The translations under genes and the position numbers were made by a program. 64,000 nucleotides of DNA. Source: Sphingomonas sp. EC-HK361. Lineage in GTDB: Bacteria > Pseudomonadota > Alphaproteobacteria > Sphingomonadales > Sphingomonadaceae. Position 1 is the first letter of the stretch. Every line of letters starts with the position of its first letter. Shown in pieces: positions 41,574 through 50,993 of the stretch. The stretch lies in the NCBI RefSeq assembly GCF_902498785.1, contig NZ_LR701493.1, positions 667,459 through 731,458 of the forward strand, written 5' to 3'. The notes below the pieces were generated by a model that did no database searches, had not been told where the DNA came from, and worked only from the letters and a program-made list of their open reading frames with translations.

Positions 41574-41720
41574 GTGGCGTTCGCCCTCACTCTTCCGGCG
41601 CCCGAGGCGCGTGCCGACAGCCCGCAATCCGGCAAGCCTGCCCCCTCCATCGGCACCGGTGCCCACGGCCACACCTGTCCCGGTGCGACGCTGCCCTTCG
41701 GCATGGTGCAGGTGAGCCCA
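41574..41720 (+). pseudogene. GH92 remnant (N-terminal fragment)
   Basis: A GTG-start frame directly after GH125 encodes a signal-like region (AFALTLPAPEARADS) and then SIGTGAHGHTCPGATLPFGM with VQVSP, which matches the start of a second type of GH92 mature domain (GTGGHGHTYPGATVPFGM in intact members). Similarity stops at 41720 and the following 150 bp read as unrelated sequence up to the exporter operon. It marks a deletion end point of a formerly longer mannosidase cluster. Confidence 0.6.
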
Positions 41721-41863
41721 TGGGGTGGCCCCTGCGGTAATGTTCGAATGGCGGGTGGCGGGTTGTCCTGCGGCAAGCACGCGATTGAAGTAGCGGGGCG
41801 ATTCCGTCGCAGGATCGCCGCGGCCGGCGGCGAGGGAAATGCTGACCGGCCGCGACGAACCGC

Positions 41864-44371
41864 TTATTCGTAACGCAGCGCCTTCACCGGGCTCGTCCGC
41901 GCGACGCGCCAGGCATGTGCCGCGATCGTGGCGACCGCGATCAGGAGCGCGAGCAGCCCAGCCTCGATGAAGGGCACCGGCGTCATCGCGATGCGCTGAT
42001 CGAAGCCGTTGAGCCAGTCGCGCATGATCCACCACGCGATCGGCCAGGCGACGATGTTCGCGACGAGAACCGGGCGGCTGAACTGCCACACCAGCAGCCG
42101 AACGATGTCGCGGGTCCGCGCGCCCAGCACCTTGCGGATGCCGATCTCCTTGGTGCGCCGTTCCGCGGTGAACGCGGCGAGGCCGAACAGCCCGAGGCAC
42201 CCGATCACCACCGCGAGCAAGGCGAACGCGCCGAAGAGCTGCGCGCGGGCGCTGTCGGGCTTGTAGAGATCGCGCACGATGTCATCGACGAAGCGCGCGC
42301 GGAACGGGATGTCGGGCACCATCCGCTTCCAGATGGCTTCGATCTGATCGCGCACCGTCTTGGGTTGTGCGCCCTGGAAGCGGACCATGATCTGGGTCAG
42401 GTTGCTGGTGTCGTAATTGTAGAACATCGGCTGGAGCGGATCGCGCACCGAGCGGTAGCGGACGTCGTTGACGATGCCGACGACGGTCGATGGCACGAGG
42501 CCGTACTGCGTCTCGACGGCGCTGGTCATGATCTGTTTGCCAAGCGCATCGGCGGGGCGTCTGAAGCCGAGGCGTCGCGTCGCTTCTTCGGTCAGGACGA
42601 TGTTGATCCCGCGCGCGACAAGGGCGCGCTGCGATTCCGGTGTCGCCGGAGAGGGGAGTGTCGCGTCGTCCATCGGCCGGCTGCCGGAAAGGTTGCGGCC
42701 GGCGACGATCTTCATGCCCATCGCGTCGAAAAAGCCCTCGTCGATCGCATAGACGCCAAGCGCGATCTGTTCGGCGTGACCGGGCAACTGCACGTCGGTC
42801 ATGGAATTGTGGCCGTTATTGACCGCGATGCTTGTCCGGCCGACCGCCGCGACGCCGGGAACGCGTTTGATCTGGTCGATCATCGCCTCGCTCACGCTCG
42901 CGACCTGGGGGCGCTCCAGCCCGTCGATCTGGATAAGGCCGTCACGCTTGTAGCCGGCATCGACGGAGCGGGCATAGACCGTCTGGGTGTAGACGATCGC
43001 GGTGCAGATGATGAGGCCGATCGATACCGCGAACTGGCCCACGACGAGGATGTTGCGCAGGCGCCCGGAGCCTTCCGCATCGGCAGACGACTTGTTCGCC
43101 TTCAGCACCCGCGCCGGTTCGAAACGCGAGAGGACGAGCGCGGGGTAGATGCCGCCCGCCAGCCCGACGAGCAGGGTTAGCAGGACGACCGGCAGCAACA
43201 CTCCGTCGAGCGCGAAATACCGAATGGCGATCTGTGCATCGAGGAAGGTGTTGACCCAGGGCAGCGCGAGCTCGACCAGCGCAAGCCCGACCAGCGTCGC
43301 GATCGCCGAAATCAGGATCGATTCCCCGATGAACTGGACGATCAATTGCTGCCGCGTTGCGCCGAGCACCTTGCGCAGCGCGACCTCGCGCGCCCGCTGA
43401 GTCGCGCGCGCCGTCGCCAGATTGGTGAAATTGACGCACGCCATGCCGAGGATCAGCAGCGCGATGACCGCGAAGGTGACGATCGCGCGCTTGTCGTTGC
43501 CCGGCCGCTGCGCGCCGTTCTGCGCCTCGCCCAGATGGACGTCCCGGATGTTGACCAGCTTCCAGTCCTGATCGTCGCCGGGGTTCGTGCGCACCCCGCC
43601 GCTGTTCTCGTCGGGGATGTTGCGCTTCTTCCACGCGGCAATGCCTTCATTGACTGTCGCGGCGTCCGCGCCCGAGCGCAGGCGGACCCAATAGCCGCCC
43701 GACTGCCAGCTCCAGCTCGTCAGCGCGCCCGGCGATTTCTGCCAATAGCTCGCCGGATCGAACCGCGCGACCATGCCGAAGCCGAGCGAGGAGTTTTTGG
43801 GCAGATCCTGATACACGCCGGTGACGCGGTAATCGGCCTTGTAGTCTTCGCTGGTCAGCGTGAGCGTCTGGCCGATCGGGTTGGCGGAGCCGAACAGCTG
43901 CGTCGCGGCCTTGCGGCTGAGCGCGAGCGCGTGCGGATCGTCGAGCGCGTGTTTCGGGTCGCCCTGAAGGAAGGGGACGTGGAGCACGTCGAACAGGTTG
44001 CCGTCGACGAAGAGCGCGCCCGGCACCGTGCTCGGCTGGCCGTCCTTGATGACGACGATCGACTGGCTGGTGAAATACACCGCCTTTTCGATCTGGGGGA
44101 AATCCTTGGTGAGCGCCGGGCCGACGACATAGCTCGTCTGCTGGAGCTTCATTTCCTCGCTGCCGCGCGCGTTCGCGCGGTAGTAATCCTGCACCTGGAA
44201 GACCTTGTCGGAGTCGGCGAGCCAGCCGTCATAGCTGAACTCATAGCGCACGAAGCCCAGGATCAGCAGGCACGCGGCGATGCCGAGCGCGAGGCCGATG
44301 ATGTTGATCGCGGCATAGGCCCGGTTCTTGGCCAGCGCGCGCAGGCCAACGGTCAGGTAATTGCGCCACAT
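41864..44371 (-). CDS. MacB/FtsX-like ABC transporter permease (tandem MacB_PCD and FtsX domains)
   Basis: An 835-residue inner-membrane protein with two MacB-type periplasmic domains and two FtsX regions. The first helix is NIIGLALGIAACLLILGFV, the periplasmic part spans ~45-290, a helix group follows with ATARATQRAREVALRKVLGATRQQ, then a second periplasmic part and a second helix group with AAFTAERRTKEIGIRKVLGARTRDI. It ends SPVKALRYE. Family members drive export by mechanotransmission rather than direct transport. SD AAAGGA supports the ATG at 44371. It is last in the adaptor-ATPase-permease operon. Confidence 0.92.
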   Translation of the reverse strand: MWRNYLTVGLRALAKNRAYAAINIIGLALGIAACLLILGFVRYEFSYDGWLADSDKVFQVQDYYRANARGSEEMKLQQTSYVVGPALTKDFPQIEKAVYFTSQSIVVIKDGQPSTVPGALFVDGNLFDVLHVPFLQGDPKHALDDPHALALSRKAATQLFGSANPIGQTLTLTSEDYKADYRVTGVYQDLPKNSSLGFGMVARFDPASYWQKSPGALTSWSWQSGGYWVRLRSGADAATVNEGIAAWKKRNIPDENSGGVRTNPGDDQDWKLVNIRDVHLGEAQNGAQRPGNDKRAIVTFAVIALLILGMACVNFTNLATARATQRAREVALRKVLGATRQQLIVQFIGESILISAIATLVGLALVELALPWVNTFLDAQIAIRYFALDGVLLPVVLLTLLVGLAGGIYPALVLSRFEPARVLKANKSSADAEGSGRLRNILVVGQFAVSIGLIICTAIVYTQTVYARSVDAGYKRDGLIQIDGLERPQVASVSEAMIDQIKRVPGVAAVGRTSIAVNNGHNSMTDVQLPGHAEQIALGVYAIDEGFFDAMGMKIVAGRNLSGSRPMDDATLPSPATPESQRALVARGINIVLTEEATRRLGFRRPADALGKQIMTSAVETQYGLVPSTVVGIVNDVRYRSVRDPLQPMFYNYDTSNLTQIMVRFQGAQPKTVRDQIEAIWKRMVPDIPFRARFVDDIVRDLYKPDSARAQLFGAFALLAVVIGCLGLFGLAAFTAERRTKEIGIRKVLGARTRDIVRLLVWQFSRPVLVANIVAWPIAWWIMRDWLNGFDQRIAMTPVPFIEAGLLALLIAVATIAAHAWRVARTSPVKALRYE

Positions 44372-44385
44372 CGCAAATGATCCTT

Positions 44386-45066
44386 TCACGCAGCCCGCCG
44401 GCGTTCCTGGAGGATCCGTCCGTCGAGCATGTTGACGACGCGGCTCGCATAATCGGCATGCGCCGGGGAATGGGTGACCATGACGATCGTCGAGCCTTCC
44501 GCGTTCAGTTGCTGGAGCATCCGCATCACCTCCTCGCCGTGATTGGTGTCGAGATTGCCGGTCGGCTCATCGGCGAGGATGAGTTTGGGCGCAGCGACGA
44601 GCGCGCGGGCGACCGCGACGCGCTGCTGCTGCCCGCCCGACAACTGGCTCGGCCGGTGGCGCGCGCGGTGAGCGATGCCGACGCGGTCCATCACGTCATC
44701 GGTGCGGCGCTTGCGCTCGGCGGCGGAGACATCGTGATAGAGCAAAGCGAGCTCGACATTCTCGCGCACGCTGAGCTCGTCGATCAGGTTGAAGCTCTGG
44801 AAGATGAAGCCGATATTCGCCTTGCGGAATTCGGCGAGCCTGCCTTCGGTCAGCCCCGCGACCTCGGTGCCGTTGAAGACGTAGGACCCGCTCGACGGGC
44901 TGTCGAGCATGCCCATGAGGTTGAGGAGCGTCGACTTGCCGCAGCCCGACGGCCCCATGATCGCGGCGAATTCACCGTCGGCGATATCGAGATCGATCGC
45001 GTCGAGCGCGGTCGTCTCGATCGTGTCGGTGCGGTAGACCCGCGAGAGCGCGCGCATCTGGAGCAT
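44386..45066 (-). CDS. MacB/LolD-type ABC transporter ATP-binding protein
   Basis: A 226-residue ATPase that powers the adjacent permease. Walker [14 protein letters not shown]-loop [14 protein letters not shown], signature [15 protein letters not shown], Walker [13 protein letters not shown] and the H-loop [11 protein letters not shown] are all intact. It is typical of the MacB/LolD/FtsE group. The start overlaps the adaptor stop (ATGA). Confidence 0.95.
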
Positions 45067-46412
45067 CAATCGTCCTTTCCATTGGCGGAAGCCGCCGTGA
45101 GATCGAGCCGGTCCTTGTCCTCGAAACCGGTATAGGGGGAGGTGATGACTCGCTCGCCGGCGTCCAGCCCGTCGAGCACCTCGATCGTGTCGGGGTTGCG
45201 CCGGCCAAGCCGGACCGGGCGCTTCACCGCGCTCTTGCCGTCGGGCGCGACGACGAACACCCACGCGCCGCCGGTCGTGTTGTAGAAGGCGCCGTTGGGG
45301 ATGAGCCTCGCGGGTGCGGGGTCACCCAGCGTCAGCTTCGCCTGCAGCGTCTGGCCGCGCTGGATGTTCTCCGGCTCGGCGCCGGTGAACTGCAGATCGA
45401 CCTGGAACTGGCCGTTCTGCACCTGCGGGTAGATTTTGGTGACCTTCGCGCCGTAGGTCTTTCCTGCCAGATCGACCCGCGCCTGCTGCCCCACCTGCAC
45501 GCGGCCGAGGTAGAATTCATCGACTCCCGCCTGCAGCTTGTTGCGCCCCGGCGAATCGATCTGGGCGATGCGCTCGCCGGGTTTCAGCGACTGGCCGACC
45601 TGAATGTCGAAGCCGGAGAGTTGCCCCGCGACCGGCGCCCTGAGGTTCAGCGCGTCGAGATTGGCGCGCGCGATGCCGAGCCCGGATTGCAGCGACTGCA
45701 TCGATGCGCGCTGCTGCGACAGCTGGGCTGATTGCAGCCGTTCGTCGGTGTTCTGGCTGCGGCGCAGGGTTTCGAGCTGGCGTTGCTGGAAGGTGAACTG
45801 GTCGGTCGTGTCCTTGAACTGGCGCCCGGCGACGAAGCCCTTGCGCGCGAGCGGCGCCTCCAGCTCATACTGGCGCTTGGCCTTGCTGGTCGCGAGGCCG
45901 GCGTCAAGAATCGCGCGCTCGTTGGCGAGGCGGGTCTGCGCGAGCGCGAGTTCCTGGCTGCGCATGTTGTTGATCTGCTGCTCGACCTCGGTCTGGCGGG
46001 CGAGCGTCGAAAGCTGGAGCTCGGCATTGGAGAGCACCGCGATGAGCTGGCCCTGCTGAAGCATCGCGCCGTCCTCGGCCACGACGCGCTCGACCCGGCC
46101 GCCCTCGATGGAATCGAGATAAACAGTGAGGAGCGGGGTGACGCGCGCGCGCAGCGGGATGAAGTCCTCGAACTGGCCGGTGCGGACGGGGGAAATGGTC
46201 AGCCGGTCACTCGCGACGCTCTGCGTGCCGGCACTCGGGGCGAACCACCAGCAAAGCATCGCAGCGATCAGTGCGGCAGCGGCGGCGAGGGCGATCTTCA
46301 GGCGCGGCGGCATCCGGCGCGTGGCGACGCTGCGGTCCATGCCGCTGCCGGTCACAGCGCCCGTCACCGGCCGGTCCCCGGCGACTTCGTCCTTCATGCG
46401 CACGACGCTCAT
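45066..46412 (-). CDS. Periplasmic adaptor (HlyD/MacA-like) of an ABC efflux system
   Basis: A 448-residue membrane-fusion protein. An N-terminal cytosolic tail precedes one helix (KIALAAAAALIAAMLCWWFA). A lipoyl-like half (GGRVERVVAEDGAMLQQGQLIAVLSNAE), a long coiled-coil hairpin (about 135-250, glutamine-rich LQSAQLSQQRASMQSLQSG, quoted in part) and beta-barrel parts (LRAPVAGQLSGFDIQVGQSLKPGE) follow. It would bridge the permease to an outer-membrane channel; no TolC-like gene is nearby. SD GGAAGGAG is strong. It is first in the operon and lies behind a perfect sigma-54 promoter. Confidence 0.92.
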   Translation of the reverse strand: MSVVRMKDEVAGDRPVTGAVTGSGMDRSVATRRMPPRLKIALAAAAALIAAMLCWWFAPSAGTQSVASDRLTISPVRTGQFEDFIPLRARVTPLLTVYLDSIEGGRVERVVAEDGAMLQQGQLIAVLSNAELQLSTLARQTEVEQQINNMRSQELALAQTRLANERAILDAGLATSKAKRQYELEAPLARKGFVAGRQFKDTTDQFTFQQRQLETLRRSQNTDERLQSAQLSQQRASMQSLQSGLGIARANLDALNLRAPVAGQLSGFDIQVGQSLKPGERIAQIDSPGRNKLQAGVDEFYLGRVQVGQQARVDLAGKTYGAKVTKIYPQVQNGQFQVDLQFTGAEPENIQRGQTLQAKLTLGDPAPARLIPNGAFYNTTGGAWVFVVAPDGKSAVKRPVRLGRRNPDTIEVLDGLDAGERVITSPYTGFEDKDRLDLTAASANGKDD

Positions 46413-46436
46413 CGCTGCTCCTTCCGCCAGGCGATC

Positions 46437-46452
46437 AGCAAGGCCCGTGCCA
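46437..46452 (-). promoter_or_regulatory. Sigma-54 promoter of the exporter operon (perfect consensus)
   Basis: On the minus strand the sequence is TGGCACGGGCCTTGCT, an exact match to TGGCACG-N4-TTGCW with GG and GC at -24/-12 spacing. It lies 24 bp ahead of the adaptor start, so the leader would be short. Exactly 66 bp further upstream lies a pair of dyads that match those in front of the peptide gene. Confidence 0.85.
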
Positions 46453-46518
46453 GCTCCCCTGCCAGCCCCCTGGCCAGCCGGTGCGCGCCTCAGCAGCATC
46501 CTGCGCACCCGCGCGACC

Positions 46519-46552
46519 GTCCGGTTTCGGACACCATTGTTCGAAACCGGAC
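46519..46552. promoter_or_regulatory. Enhancer (UAS) dyad pair A upstream of the exporter promoter
   Basis: GTCCGGTTTCGGAC (46519-46532, perfect 5-4-5 dyad) and GTTCGAAACCGGAC (46539-46552, one mismatch) have centres 20 bp apart, two helical turns. The pair also forms a larger inverted repeat, ACCGTCCGGTTTCG to CGAAACCGGACGGT. The likely ligand is the NtrC-type activator encoded at 46870. Confidence 0.75.
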
Positions 46553-46563
46553 GGTTCCGGCGA

Positions 46564-46707
46564 TCATGCGAGCGCTGCCTGAAGGAAGGCGGGGCCGGCG
46601 ATCGGCGGCGCCGAGGCAGCGACGACGAGGCCGCTGGTCAGCAGGATGGCGGCGAAGGCGCTGAGCGCCTGGAGCGACTTTGCGATAGACGGGACAGAAG
46701 GGGACAT
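46564..46707 (-). CDS. 47-residue hydrophobic (exported or membrane) peptide
   Basis: A short gene below common size cut-offs. The product starts MSPSVPSIAKSLQALSAF, has a single hydrophobic segment (AAILLTSGLVVAASA) and a C-terminal tail APPIAGPAFLQAALA. A GGAG ribosome site lies about 8 nt before the ATG, and a sigma-54 promoter lies 44 bp upstream. The helix with small residues and an ASA end could be a signal peptide or membrane anchor. It lies between the exporter operon and the regulator and runs in the exporter's direction. I know no family; it may be the exporter's cargo or a stress sensor, which is inference. Confidence 0.7.
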   Translation of the reverse strand: MSPSVPSIAKSLQALSAFAAILLTSGLVVAASAPPIAGPAFLQAALA

Positions 46708-46751
46708 CTGGCATCTCCGAAGCCGGCGGGATTGCCGACATGGACCTGCTC

Positions 46752-46767
46752 AGCATTCGCCGTGCCA
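46752..46767 (-). promoter_or_regulatory. Sigma-54 promoter of the 47-residue peptide gene
   Basis: On the minus strand TGGCACGGCGAATGCT matches TGGCACG-N4-TTGCW with one mismatch (ATGCT for TTGCT), with both invariant dinucleotides present. The ATG of the peptide gene is 44 bp downstream. Dyad pair B begins exactly 66 bp upstream, the same distance as at the exporter promoter. Confidence 0.8.
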
Positions 46768-46833
46768 AGTCGCGAAATGCACGAATTTGCGGGTAATTTG
46801 CGGTGCGGGTGGGCAGTGGCACGGAATTTGTTT

Positions 46834-46868
46834 GTCCGTTTCCGCACGCCGACTGTACGGGAACGGAC
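46834..46868. promoter_or_regulatory. Enhancer (UAS) dyad pair B between the peptide gene and its activator gene
   Basis: GTCCGTTTCCGCAC (46834-46847) and GTACGGGAACGGAC (46855-46868) are each one change from the perfect GTCCG-N4-CGGAC dyad and have centres 21 bp apart. The second ends one base before the activator's ATG, so binding could also repress or autoregulate the activator. Confidence 0.75.
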
Positions 46869-46869
46869 A

Positions 46870-48264
46870 ATGGGGAAGACGCCGGACTTCGATCTTTGCG
46901 TCGTGATCGACGACGACGAGGATATCCTGACCGCGGCGCGGCTGCTGCTGCGCGGGCAGTTCGCCGAGGTGCTGGTCGAGCGCGCGCCCGATCAGGCGAT
47001 CGCGGCGCTTGGCGGACGGCTGCCGGACGTGGTGCTGCTCGATGCCAATTTCGCGCGCGGCGCGACGGATGCGGCGGAGGGCTTGGCGTGGCTCGAGAAG
47101 CTGCTCGCGCTCGATCCCGAGATGGTCGTGGTGATGATCACGGCGCATGCCGGGGTGAATGTCGCGGTCGAGGCGATGAAGCGTGGCGCCACCGATTTCG
47201 TGTCCAAGCCGTGGAGCAACGAGCGGCTGCTGGCGACCGTGCGCACGGCAGCGGCGCTGCGCCGCTCCCGCCGCTCGGTCGCGACCGAGCGCGCGCGGGT
47301 CGCGGCGGTCGCCGAGCCGGCGGGCGGTGCCCATCCGCTGATCGGCGATGCGCCGGCGATGGCGCGCATCCACTCGCTCATCGCGCGCGCCGCGCCGACC
47401 CAGGCGAACGTGCTTATCCTGGGCGAGAACGGCACCGGCAAGGAGCTCGTCGCGCGCGCGCTCCACCACCAGTCGCTGCGTGCCGACCAGCCGATGGTGA
47501 CCGTCGATCTCGGCGCGATCGCGACCGAACTCATCGATTCCGAACTGTTCGGCCATGTGAAGGGGGCCTTCACCGACGCCCGCGCCGACCGCATCGGGCG
47601 CATCCAGGCGGCGGACGGCGGCACTTTGTTCCTCGACGAGATCGGCAACCTGCCGCTCCACCTCCAGCCCAAATTGCTGACCGTGCTCGAGCAGCGGCAG
47701 GTCACCCCGGTCGGCGCGAACCGGCCGGTGCCGGTCGATATCCGCGTGATCGCCGCGACCAACATGACGCCGGAGACGATGCGCGACGACCGGCAGTTCC
47801 GGCAGGATCTGCTGTTTCGGCTAAACACGGTCGAGATCGAACTGCCTTCTCTGCGGGACCGGCGCGAGGACGTCCCGGCGCTCGTCGATCATTTCCTCGA
47901 TCTCTACGCCCGCCGCTACAATCGCCCGGTGCCGCAGGTCAGTGCGGCGGCGCGCGCGGCGCTGGTCGCGCATGACTGGCCCGGCAATGTCCGCGCGCTG
48001 CGCCACGCGATCGAGCGCGCGGTGATCCTGGCCGGCGATGCGCCGCTGACGCCGGAGGACTTTCCGCTCACCGCGCGCGGCGCGCGGATCGCGCCCGAGG
48101 CGATCGTGGCGCCGCCCGTGCAGGACATGAACCTCGACCGGGTCGAGCGACGGCTGGTCGAGGCGGCGCTGAAAAAGCACGGCTACAACATTTCGTCCGC
48201 CGCGACCGAGCTCGGCCTCTCGCGCGCCGCGCTCTACCGGCGCATGGAAAAACATGGGCTTTGA
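46870..48264 (+). CDS. NtrC-type sigma-54-dependent response regulator
   Basis: A 464-residue bacterial enhancer-binding protein. A receiver domain (residues ~8-120) has the acidic pocket VVIDDDED, the phospho-acceptor in VVLLDANF, the Thr in VMITAHAG and lysine in FVSKPWS. The AAA+ domain (about 155-390) has Walker A LGENGTGKELVARAL, a GAFTDA loop in place of GAFTGA, and Walker B GGTLFLDEIGNL. A Fis-type helix-turn-helix is at the C-terminus (NISSAATELGLSRAALYRRME). It presumably binds the flanking dyads and activates the two sigma-54 promoters. It overlaps the kinase gene by 11 bp. Confidence 0.93.
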   Translation: MGKTPDFDLCVVIDDDEDILTAARLLLRGQFAEVLVERAPDQAIAALGGRLPDVVLLDANFARGATDAAEGLAWLEKLLALDPEMVVVMITAHAGVNVAVEAMKRGATDFVSKPWSNERLLATVRTAAALRRSRRSVATERARVAAVAEPAGGAHPLIGDAPAMARIHSLIARAAPTQANVLILGENGTGKELVARALHHQSLRADQPMVTVDLGAIATELIDSELFGHVKGAFTDARADRIGRIQAADGGTLFLDEIGNLPLHLQPKLLTVLEQRQVTPVGANRPVPVDIRVIAATNMTPETMRDDRQFRQDLLFRLNTVEIELPSLRDRREDVPALVDHFLDLYARRYNRPVPQVSAAARAALVAHDWPGNVRALRHAIERAVILAGDAPLTPEDFPLTARGARIAPEAIVAPPVQDMNLDRVERRLVEAALKKHGYNISSAATELGLSRAALYRRMEKHGL

Positions 48265-49567
48265 TCGCCGCTTCACGTTGGGGCTGGCGGCGTGGGTCGC
48301 GGCGCTGCTGGTTGTCGCTGCTGGCTTCCTGCTCGCGCTCGCGACACCGGGTCTCGCGGCGGCGCGCCTTGTCGCCGGGCTGCTGGTCGCGGGTGTCGTG
48401 TGGGGATTGTGGCGGCATGTGGCGCGGACCAACCAGATCGTCGCGCGGTTCGTGGAGGCGGTGCGTTTCGGCGACGTGACCGCGCGGTTCGATCGCGGCG
48501 GCGGGGCCGGGTTCGGCGATCTCGGCGCGACCCTCGACGCGGCGATGCGCCACTTGCATGCCGAGCGCGGGCAGGCGGAGCGCGACCTGCGCTATTACGA
48601 GGCGCTGATCGACGACGTGCCGGTCGCGGTCCTGACCGTCGACGCAGCGCGGGGCGTGACCCTTGCCAACAAGGTCGCGCGGCGGCTGTTCGTGCGGCAC
48701 GACGGCGTGCAGCCGGGCGATTTCGCAGTCTATGGGACCAGCTTCGCCCATCGTCTCGCGCAGGATGGCCCGGTCCGGCAAGAGCTGTTGATCCTGCAAT
48801 TCGCCGGCGGGCCGCAGCACGCGATCGTGCGCACGGCAGCGCTGGGGCGGCTGGGGCTGGATGTGCGCGTCGTGACGGTCGAGCCGATGCAGGGCACGCT
48901 CGATACCGTCGAGATGGCGACCCAGACCGATCTCGTGCGCGTGCTCACCCACGAAATCCTCAATTCGCTGACCCCGGTGACGTCGCTCGCCGGCACCGCG
49001 GTCGTGCTGCTGGGCGAAGACCCGCCCGACATCGCCGATGCGCGCGCCGCGGTGCTGACGCTGGCGCGCCGTGCCGAGGGGCTGCGCCATTTCATCGAAA
49101 GCTACCGCGCGGTCGCGCGCGCGCCCGAGGTCCGGCGCCGCGTCTTCGGCGCGCAGCCCTTTGCCGACGAACTCCGGCGGCTGTTCCTCGTCGAATGGCC
49201 GACGCTGCCGCTCACGGTCGATGTGCCGCCCGCCTTGAACCTCGACGCCGATCCCGACCTGATCGCGCAAGTGCTCATCAACCTGCTGCGCAATGCGGCC
49301 CAGGCGACGTATCTGCGCGAGGGGCCTGCCTGGGTGCGTCTCGCGATGACGGCCGAGGGCGACCGGGTCCGAATTGCGGTGGAGGACAGCGGCCCCGGCG
49401 TGCCCGAGGCGCTGCGGCGGGATATCTTCCTCCCCTTCTTCACCACGCGCGCGGAAGGCACCGGCGTCGGCCTCAACCTCGCGCGGCAGATCGTCATCGC
49501 GCATGGCGGCACGATCGAAGTCGGGCAGGGCGCGCAGGGCGGCGCGCTCTTCAGCCTCGTGATCTAG
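48254..49567 (+). CDS. Membrane sensor histidine kinase (NtrY/NtrB-like)
   Basis: A 437-residue kinase, partner of the upstream regulator. Two N-terminal helices (AAWVAALLVVAAGFLLALA and LVAGLLVAGVVWGL) are separated by only a few residues, so there is almost no periplasmic sensor domain; signals are probably sensed in or at the membrane. A HAMP-like and PAS segment (YYEALIDDVPVAVLTVDAA) precedes the phospho-acceptor region VRVLTHEILNSLTPVTSL and the ATPase boxes LLRNAAQAT, EDSGPGVPE and GTGVGLNLARQI. The short input domain fits a kinase that senses envelope damage. Confidence 0.93.
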   Translation: MGFDRRFTLGLAAWVAALLVVAAGFLLALATPGLAAARLVAGLLVAGVVWGLWRHVARTNQIVARFVEAVRFGDVTARFDRGGGAGFGDLGATLDAAMRHLHAERGQAERDLRYYEALIDDVPVAVLTVDAARGVTLANKVARRLFVRHDGVQPGDFAVYGTSFAHRLAQDGPVRQELLILQFAGGPQHAIVRTAALGRLGLDVRVVTVEPMQGTLDTVEMATQTDLVRVLTHEILNSLTPVTSLAGTAVVLLGEDPPDIADARAAVLTLARRAEGLRHFIESYRAVARAPEVRRRVFGAQPFADELRRLFLVEWPTLPLTVDVPPALNLDADPDLIAQVLINLLRNAAQATYLREGPAWVRLAMTAEGDRVRIAVEDSGPGVPEALRRDIFLPFFTTRAEGTGVGLNLARQIVIAHGGTIEVGQGAQGGALFSLVI

Positions 49568-49580
49568 GGCCCGAAAGCGA

Positions 49581-50378
49581 TCAGCGAACGACAAGCTTCG
49601 TGTAGAGATGCCAGGTCGAATAGCCGAGCCAGGGCAGGATGACGGCAAGGCCGATCCCGAGCGGGATCGTGCCGAGCGCAAGCAGCGCCGCGACGCGCAG
49701 GCCCCACCCCGCGACCGGCCAGGGATTGCGGCGTACCGCCTTCAGCGAGGTGCGCACCGCGGTTTCCGCATCGACCGGCTTGTCGACGACCATAGGGAAC
49801 GAGACGACCGAGAAGACGAGCGCCGCGACCGCGAAGGCGAAGCCGGCGAGGTTGCCGGCGACGATCATCGCCCAGCCTTCGGGGGTCGAGAACAGCCGCC
49901 CGAACAGATCGCCGACCCGCATCGGCGCGGTCGCCCCGAAGGTCAGATCGTAGATCGCATAGGCCGCGAAGAGCCAGCCGATGAACAGGACCGCGAGCCC
50001 GAAGGTGAGCATGATGAGCGGCGTGCGGCTGCGGCCGCGCAGCGGATCGAGGAAATGCCACCAGGTGGAATCCTCCCCGTCCTCGCGCCGGCGCGCCAGT
50101 TCGTAGAAGCCGGAGGCGACCGCAGGCCCCGCGATCGAGACGCCGGCGATCAGCGGGAAGAACAGCGGCAGCAGCGGATCGTTGAAGGTGATGACCACCG
50201 CCAGGATACAGATCACCGGATAGAGGAACCCGGCGAAGATCAGGTCGCCGCGCTTGTCGCGAAAATCCTTCCAGCCTTCGGACAGCGCCCATTGCAGGTC
50301 TGCGGTCGTGATCCGGCGCACGTCAGGGAGAACGGCATCTGGCGCCGGAATCGGGGTGGCGTCGACCGTGGTCGTCAT
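49581..50378 (-). CDS. DUF2189-family integral membrane protein
   Basis: A 265-residue protein with about six hydrophobic helices and the DUF2189 pattern: ALSEGWKDFRDKRGDLIFAG, SGFYELARRRE, VVSFPMVVDKPVDAETAVRTSL and a C-terminal LPWLGYSTWHLYTKLV. The function is unknown; relatives often lie near cytochrome oxidase or photosynthesis genes. SD AGGAG fits the ATG at 50378. Convergent with the kinase gene, with 13 bp between the stops. Confidence 0.88.
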   Translation of the reverse strand: MTTTVDATPIPAPDAVLPDVRRITTADLQWALSEGWKDFRDKRGDLIFAGFLYPVICILAVVITFNDPLLPLFFPLIAGVSIAGPAVASGFYELARRREDGEDSTWWHFLDPLRGRSRTPLIMLTFGLAVLFIGWLFAAYAIYDLTFGATAPMRVGDLFGRLFSTPEGWAMIVAGNLAGFAFAVAALVFSVVSFPMVVDKPVDAETAVRTSLKAVRRNPWPVAGWGLRVAALLALGTIPLGIGLAVILPWLGYSTWHLYTKLVVR

Positions 50379-50900: not shown

Positions 50901-50909
50901 GTTCGTCCA

Positions 50910-50993
50910 CCTCGTCGCCATTGACCTCGTCGCCATTGACCTCGTCGCCATTGACCTCGTCGCCATTGACCTTGTCGCCATTGACCTTGTCGG
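50910..50993. repeat. 15-bp tandem repeat between tspO and bchI
   Basis: Five full copies of CCTCGTCGCCATTGA (the fifth CCTTGTCGCCATTGA) and a partial sixth end at the PpsR-like site. The period is a multiple of three, so both flanking frames stay open: it reads LVAID repeats in the bchI frame and MATRS/VNGDE repeats on the other strand. Copy number is likely to vary between strains. Confidence 0.9.

Follow-up and report, generated by a model that had tools for sequence, protein, structure and literature searches.

In BceAB-type systems of Gram-positive bacteria, a kinase of loop-less design works with an OmpR-type regulator without sigma-54, and the transporter acts as the sensor; in the ZraSR-ZraP system, zraP lies divergent from zraSR. 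Here we analyze a locus of Sphingomonas sp. EC-HK361 to which these two systems offer the nearest described logic, ZraSR-ZraP for its sigma-54 part and the BceAB-type systems for its kinase-transporter part. The locus lies at positions 41864-49567 of a 64,000-nucleotide stretch of contig NZ_LR701493.1 (the whole stretch is called the window below). It consists of five large genes and a small one: the genes of a regulator and a kinase are divergent from those of an adaptor, an ATPase and a permease, and the gene of a 47-aa peptide lies between the two sets.

How does this arrangement compare with what has been described? In E. coli, ZraSR is also an NtrC-type two-component pair that acts with sigma-54 in envelope stress and has a small accessory target, ZraP; unlike the present locus, its regulon as given in PMC7657598 includes no exporter, and ZraP is described as a zinc-linked chaperone. 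BceAB-type kinases are paired with a MacB-superfamily transporter (PMC5985334), and our locus differs from them in its sigma-54 promoters, its adaptor and its duplicated permease. MacAB-TolC also combines an adaptor with a MacB_PCD/FtsX permease and, according to the same source, can export a Sec-delivered peptide, enterotoxin STII being one of its cargoes (PMC5985334), whereas the window has a separate ATPase, a duplicated ADOP/YbbP-like permease, sigma-54 two-component control and a small gene. The darobactin exporter DarBCD provides the best NCBIfam matches for the window ATPase and adaptor and the second best for the permease, all of them under the curated equivalog cut-offs. MgrB (47 aa), which acts on the kinase PhoQ, and AcrZ, which binds the pump AcrB, are small membrane proteins that resemble the window peptide in size and setting only (PMC11539335). 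Finally, UrcA proteins (TIGR04433) occupy the small-gene slot in 12 related loci, whereas the urcA gene of Caulobacter is described under UzcRS and responsive to U, Zn and Cu (PMC8963506). A 2025 survey claims the first link of sigma-54 to FtsX-like permeases (PMC12316311); the string "Sphingomon" is absent from its text. Among the papers listed in literature searches, judged by title and abstract opening, we found no description of the combination in sphingomonads.

We read the locus as an envelope-stress circuit in which a tripartite pump is made along with a small membrane protein, the latter tuning either the pump or the kinase, and we give this reading a probability of about 0.58. Sequence comparison strongly supports the predicted wiring, that is, a regulator acting through dyads and sigma-54 promoters on both the peptide and the exporter; the signal, the substrate and the role of the peptide are inferred.

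Promoters, dyads and their conservation

We scanned the whole 64-kb window with simple, self-made scorers built on fixed consensus patterns for sigma-54 sites and dyads. Only two sigma-54 sites score at least 19.5, both on the minus strand: promoter 1 (TGGCACGGCGAATGCT, 46767-46752) faces the peptide gene, with 60 nt from the first base of its -24 box to the peptide ATG, and promoter 2 (TGGCACGGGCCTTGCT, 46452-46437) faces the adaptor and the rest of the exporter. Forty dinucleotide shuffles of the window contain a mean of 0.57 such sites and a maximum of 2, so that the two sites taken alone could be due to chance and their position beside the dyads matters. The dyads, of the form TGTCCGNNNNCGGACA, make two tandem pairs, the sole pairs in the window, and 40 shuffles of the window yielded no pair with at least 20 of 24 matches. 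Pair 1 (TGTCCGTTTCCGCACG / TGTACGGGAACGGACA, 46833-46869, unstranded) is centred 84.0 bp from the first base of the promoter 1 -24 box and ends one base ahead of the activator ATG; pair 2 (CGTCCGGTTTCGGACA / TGTTCGAAACCGGACG, 46518-46553, also unstranded) is centred 83.5 bp from the corresponding base of promoter 2. All dyad pairs and strong sigma-54 promoters of the window fall between activator and exporter. An earlier, sequence-only reading of this DNA had given each non-regulatory unit a sigma-54 promoter and a dyad pair of its own; every part that it named was recovered in place, and the two promoters, two pairs and near-identical geometry agree with it.

A third, weaker sigma-54-like site (TGGCACGGAATTTGTT, 46817-46832, plus strand) faces the activator gene. 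Its consensus, [TC]GGCA[CT][GA]NNNNTTG[AT], has an imperfect -12 that departs from TTGC, and directly next to the site lies dyad pair 1, covering the transcription start expected for it. On account of these two features, it may be an autorepressed or poised promoter of the activator.

Is this arrangement conserved? Scanning genome contigs with the regulator yielded 221 relatives, and we retained the 80 best; among the loci L001-L040, 39/40 come from sphingomonads by title, the remaining one (L039) being a Zixiibacteriota contig. For comparison we assembled a set of 101 full-length or nearly full-length loci (L001-L040, L141-L200 and the window) with 96 distinct regulator genes. All 101 carry the divergent adaptor, and exporter parts are missing only from short pieces (the permease in L175, ATPase and permease in L180). 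The adaptor is likewise present in 30/30 (L083-L112) and 28/28 (L113-L140) loci with short flanks, many of them from the same genomes. Among loci of non-orthologous activators (L041-L080), some of which lie on short contigs, an exporter is found in 1/40 (L044).

The control elements follow the same pattern. At least one dyad pair is present in 95/96 distinct loci, all except L039, vs 2/960 shuffled regions, and 69/96 have two; 95/96, all except L162, have at least one sigma-54 site scoring 18 or more (33/960 shuffles), and 47/96 have two (0/960 shuffles). The activator-facing site occurs in 79/96 loci, with TTGAT in 67, vs 1/960 shuffled regions. Dyad pair and promoter 1 are separated by a median of 84 bp in 86 measured cases; for promoter 2 the median is 62.5 bp (47 cases). 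A small open reading frame (ORF) with a transmembrane (TM) or exported character accompanies them in 88/96 loci. Thus, the proposal that one NtrC-type pair governs both peptide gene and exporter through dyads and sigma-54 gains support from 96 loci, and the peptide gene and the dyads, whose lack of co-conservation had been named as grounds for abandoning it, are conserved together.

The rpoN gene was found in 15/15 relatives searched. These 15 genomes hold 9-17 Sigma54_activat matches each, and we therefore rejected the idea of an rpoN dedicated to the circuit alone. Some individual loci stand out: L039 shares the divergent layout, its regulator being 49% identical, which could be a distant transfer or contamination; the regulator reading frame of L109 / L170 (G148) contains an in-frame TAG; and the G529 assembly holds two copies of the locus (L191, L192) on different contigs.

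Genes of the locus

The regulator (46870-48264, plus strand) has the Pfam domains Response_reg, Sigma54_activat and HTH_8, that is, the receiver, sigma-54 AAA+ and Fis helix-turn-helix of an NtrC-type protein with its catalytic residues. Across the 96 regulators, receiver residues D58, T91 and K113 are invariant, and the Walker A and GAFTDA residues are invariant or almost so; the tandem enhancer-like sites upstream of -24/-12 promoters, as predicted from the DNA, are also those of this class. Its best NCBIfam match is PEP-CTERM PrsR (TIGR02915), at 359 bits with a cut-off of 502.6.

The histidine kinase (48254-49567, plus strand) has a HATPase_c domain, a weak PAS match under cut-off, and two TM helices separated by a very short loop, which is the design of intramembrane-sensing kinases. 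TM segments and signal peptides were called here by hydropathy and by eye. The loop measures 2-13 aa in the 53/96 kinases where hydropathy resolved two helices, the other 43 being unresolved; at a stricter threshold the window kinase shows one TM segment, and its second helix was read by eye. Within the resolved 53, the kinase is nearly without a periplasmic part, as had been noticed at first sight.

On the minus strand, the exporter begins with a periplasmic, MacA-like adaptor of the membrane fusion protein (MFP) type (45066-46412; HlyD_3, 48.5 bits in Pfam). It reaches 133 bits for TIGR01730 RND_mfp, above the cut-off of 94.9, and its sequence matches in the PDB include MexJ and MacA chains. 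The ATG of the ATPase gene overlaps the adaptor TGA (TGATG); the product (44386-45066, minus strand) is an ABC ATPase of MacB/LolD/FtsE type (ABC_tran, 121.1 bits), with DarD as best NCBIfam model (270.5 bits, under the cut-off of 375). The permease (41864-44371, or from a GTG start at 44389, minus strand) is ADOP/YbbP-like and duplicated, with two stretches each of MacB_PCD (124.9 bits) and FtsX (98.3 bits). It matches TIGR03434 ADOP over nearly the full length at 357.5 bits, short of the cut-off of 622.3, and the MacB model PRK10535 at 43.1 of 966 bits; MacB chains are among its solved sequence relatives. The top NCBIfam models are thus darobactin exporter subunits for ATPase and adaptor, ADOP for the permease and PrsR for the regulator, and among the models shown all matches of the large genes are under the curated cut-offs, TIGR01730 excepted. 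The exporter had been called MacAB/FtsX-like, which holds in the broad sense of a tripartite exporter with MFP adaptor, FtsX/MacB_PCD permease and ABC ATPase; MacAB proper has a single PCD fused to its ATPase, whereas here the ATPase gene is separate and the permease duplicated. TolC is encoded by none of the five large genes.

The small gene (46564-46707, minus strand) has a GGAG ribosome-binding site and encodes a 47-aa single-TM or leader peptide without a Pfam or NCBIfam match, UrcA included. In the relatives, an automatic criterion (start at most 110 nt from promoter 1, 25-135 aa, a hydrophobic stretch) found a counterpart in 85 loci, one of them doubtful (L179, 35 aa), and inspection by eye recovered the UrcA genes of L033, L167 and L168, which the position filter had dropped. 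When the small proteins were sorted by eye, their start codons and hence lengths being uncertain, UrcA filled the slot in 12/96 loci (12/12 above the TIGR04433 cut-off), short leader-like peptides of 27-72 aa, among them that of the window, in 27/96, and mostly TM-plus-strand proteins of 49-98 aa in the remaining 48/96; the small gene is absent or doubtful in 9/96. When these four classes are mapped on the tree of regulators, at least 16 changes are needed, and 0/200 shuffles are as low. UrcA stands in 8/10 loci with a divergent adaptor vs 4/86 others; most such loci belong to related tree lineages, so this tie between UrcA and a swap of exporter subfamily is not independent evidence.

Is the 47-aa ORF a gene at all? 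Short peptides of the window type are found in L141-L151 (except L147) and L187, the closest being those of L141-L146 and L148 (regulators 79-85% identical), which have 32-44 aa with the chosen start and share a core like LSxxGAxxATxxLTxASAPPV. The ratio of nonsynonymous to synonymous change (dN/dS) is 0.10 for L145/L146/L148 (25 third-position vs 10 other differences) and 0.28 for L141-L144. By these ratios, the small gene is real and under purifying selection in the window's close clades. The membrane segment is its best conserved part, with 32 identical aa in L146/L148. A chance ORF was rejected on the dN/dS values and because the criterion is satisfied by 84/84 real regions vs 15/840 shuffled ones, the 84 having been preselected by the same criterion (the unselected rate is 85/96). 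The window ORF had looked like a frameshifted strand-type protein in early alignments, an idea set aside since closer relatives carry short peptides like that of the window. We also built a profile from ten window-type peptides. It matched some of twelve other short peptides well (18.1, 17.0 and 13.1 bits), the best of 240 shuffles reaching 13.4; against eleven UrcA leaders from the loci it was weak (p 0.017 vs shuffles, 0.06 vs 20 paralogous UrcA leaders). A common origin of short peptides and UrcA leaders is only suggested by these scores.

The genome G053 carries two more UrcA genes in tandem (L235, L246) outside its home locus; both have a TGGCACGCCC(C/T)CTGCA sigma-54 site and no dyad scoring 9 or more within 320 bp. 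Around the window locus, a convergent gene for a DUF2189 membrane protein (49581-50378; PF09955) follows directly behind the kinase gene. On the other side, after complete GH92 and GH125 genes, an N-terminal GH92 fragment (41574-41870; PF17678 at 34.1 bits, cut-off 34.5, profile positions 4-29 of 236) stops short of the permease end and probably represents what is left of a third GH92 gene. A 15-bp unit is repeated in tandem at 50909-50992 (5.6 copies, 98% matches), either within an ORF that encodes a magnesium-chelatase domain (PF01078) or just ahead of its start.

Predicted targets outside the locus

We searched 50 genomes (15, then 35) for dyad pairs outside the home locus, allowing two spacings and up to 3 mismatches of 24. 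There are 17 such sites, and with the reversed pattern as a control no genome had any; 12/17 have a sigma-54 site scoring at least 19 within about 150 bp. In five genomes (G200, G322, G243, G255, G163), the module precedes pcm and then a TolC-type gene: a tolC match lies downstream of pcm in 5/5, and Pfam confirmed PCMT and OEP for the G255 copies. Four genomes (G300, G281, G507, G239) have as target a small exported protein with two Cys, grouped by eye and without a Pfam family above cut-off. Others include a PspC-domain protein in G200 (PF04024 above cut-off), an exported aspartyl protease in G270 (PF13650 above cut-off) and, in G153, whose home locus L158 is without a small gene, a 44-aa leader peptide behind a promoter of the same kind. 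The circuit had been described as self-contained, which holds only in part, given the further targets elsewhere in some relatives.

Two kinds of site stand apart. The off-locus pair of G447 has no sigma-54 site scoring 18.5 or more. In G348, G480, G507 and G349, a dyad pair precedes a GntR-family gene (PF00392); no sigma-54 site there reaches 19 (the best, in G507, scores 18.5 with a poor -24, and G349 was judged by its site sequence only), and on this ground the gene was set aside as a regulon member.

For pcm itself, dyads and promoter lie within 330 bp in 4/30 loci of 29 genomes with the regulator, a sample in which the five positives were known beforehand; the G322 module, further upstream than 330 bp, is the fifth case. 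Among pcm loci from genomes that lack the activator, 0/26 show either element, dyad pair or sigma-54 site, in the 330 bp ahead of the gene.

What the circuit may do

In the envelope-stress reading, the kinase would sense a change of the inner membrane, either a lipid disturbance or an intramembrane partner, and phosphorylate the regulator. Membrane damage or the peptide itself, the signals that the sequence-only reading suggested, are likewise putative. A regulator oligomer on dyad pairs 1 and 2 would open promoters 1 and 2, leading to synthesis of the 47-aa peptide together with adaptor, ATPase and permease; bound at pair 1, the regulator would also cover the start of its own transcript and thus exert negative autoregulation. 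The exporter would dock to a TolC channel and clear an amphiphilic compound or a peptide from the periplasm. The peptide, modelled on MgrB for PhoQ and AcrZ for AcrB, would be retained in the inner membrane, where, as a small protein with one TM segment, it would tune the kinase or the permease. Probably, then, a membrane sensor switches on a pump of the efflux type together with a very small membrane peptide, and this pairing looks like an undescribed way of handling envelope trouble.

Several observations weigh against this reading: (i) the circuit is patchy, since regulator orthologs (E<=1e-120) are found only in 39/249 family genomes and 83/295 genus genomes (25/84 genus matches being without an entry of their own in the locus set); (ii) next to the exporter, a small gene is lacking in 8/96 loci (L026, L039, L158, L160, L166, L171, L177, L180); (iii) dN/dS rises to 0.64 across ten window-type peptides including that of the window, with heavy synonymous change, and ranges from 0.21 to 0.84 in other clades, so that selection is weak in some (0.84 in one); (iv) the peptide could equally well be cleaved by signal peptidase; (v) the four GntR-gene pairs without a sigma-54 site of at least 19 mean that the dyad motif is not exclusive to the circuit; and (vi) outside the five preselected genomes the pcm module occurs in 0/24, and tolC in 5/50 scanned, which makes tolC an occasional rather than a constant target.

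Could the peptide instead be what the pump exports? It would then be exported by Sec, trimmed by signal peptidase and secreted through the exporter and TolC as a signal or an antimicrobial, much as DarBCD exports darobactin. MacAB-TolC, which secretes STII, is described as taking up a Sec-exported peptide from the periplasm (PMC5985334). Peptide and exporter share their regulation, and in the 49/96 loci where the second sigma-54 site was not found one transcript is likely. The under-cut-off matches of ATPase and adaptor to darobactin exporter subunits speak for such a cargo, as do the AxA-like site and variable tail seen by eye in many small proteins, several with P-x-LA ends, and the presence of pcm-tolC in the regulon of some genomes. 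However, for many of the short peptides the mature tail, as read by eye, would be 0-25 aa long, and L165 (27 aa in total) would have none; the membrane segment, not the tail, is best conserved; and exporters as similar as those of the window and L003 (adaptor 79%, permease 72%) have small proteins of different kinds next to them. No peptide-maturation enzyme is among the annotated window neighbours (GH92, GH125, DUF2189), relatives not having been searched for one. With tails that are small, variable or missing, and a small protein that changes kind beside similar exporters, a plain cargo becomes less likely, and the idea that the peptide is the exporter's specific cargo is not favoured; we regard it as unlikely.

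A somewhat smaller chance goes to an exporter that serves envelope homeostasis, as a lipid or lipoprotein handler like LolCDE or YbbAP or as a cell-wall regulator, with efflux of foreign compounds as a secondary matter. The duplicated permease, the separate ATPase (whose matches include LolD and FtsE), the PspC and UrcA-type targets and a survey that ties sigma-54 to envelope genes (PMC3162934) fit such a role, but the MacA-like adaptor and the co-regulation of TolC in 5 genomes point to transport across the outer membrane.

A slim chance remains for the small gene as a sentinel, a membrane-embedded leader that is read by the loop-less kinase. Selection would then retain the leader or TM segment, while the rear part is lost, exchanged or regrown, as a UrcA domain, a strand protein or tails of 0-25 aa. 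If true, such a leader would report on Sec export, signal peptidase or the state of the bilayer and set the exporter level accordingly.

Last, and very improbably, the small ORF may have no protein function and serve as a translated leader that couples or times adaptor translation, for which any hydrophobic peptide would suffice: its stop lies within 10 nt of the adaptor start or overlaps it in 28/85 loci (start estimated by alignment), its sequence types vary widely and dN/dS reaches 0.84, but dN/dS is 0.10-0.28 among the window's close relatives, the adaptor has a second sigma-54 site of its own in 47/96 loci, and a known family, UrcA, fills the slot above cut-off in 12/12 such loci.

Beyond the reported link of sigma-54 to FtsX-like permeases, the present locus contributes operators, their geometry, a kinase, a second promoter and partner genes, and with these the link becomes directly testable. 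Sphingomonads thus carry a compact, conserved sigma-54 two-component module whose predicted regulon may, in some genomes, hold a complete tripartite pump. The module includes a slot for a small membrane peptide whose exported part changes, and UrcA proteins, which are of unknown function, gain from it a regulatory and genetic context.

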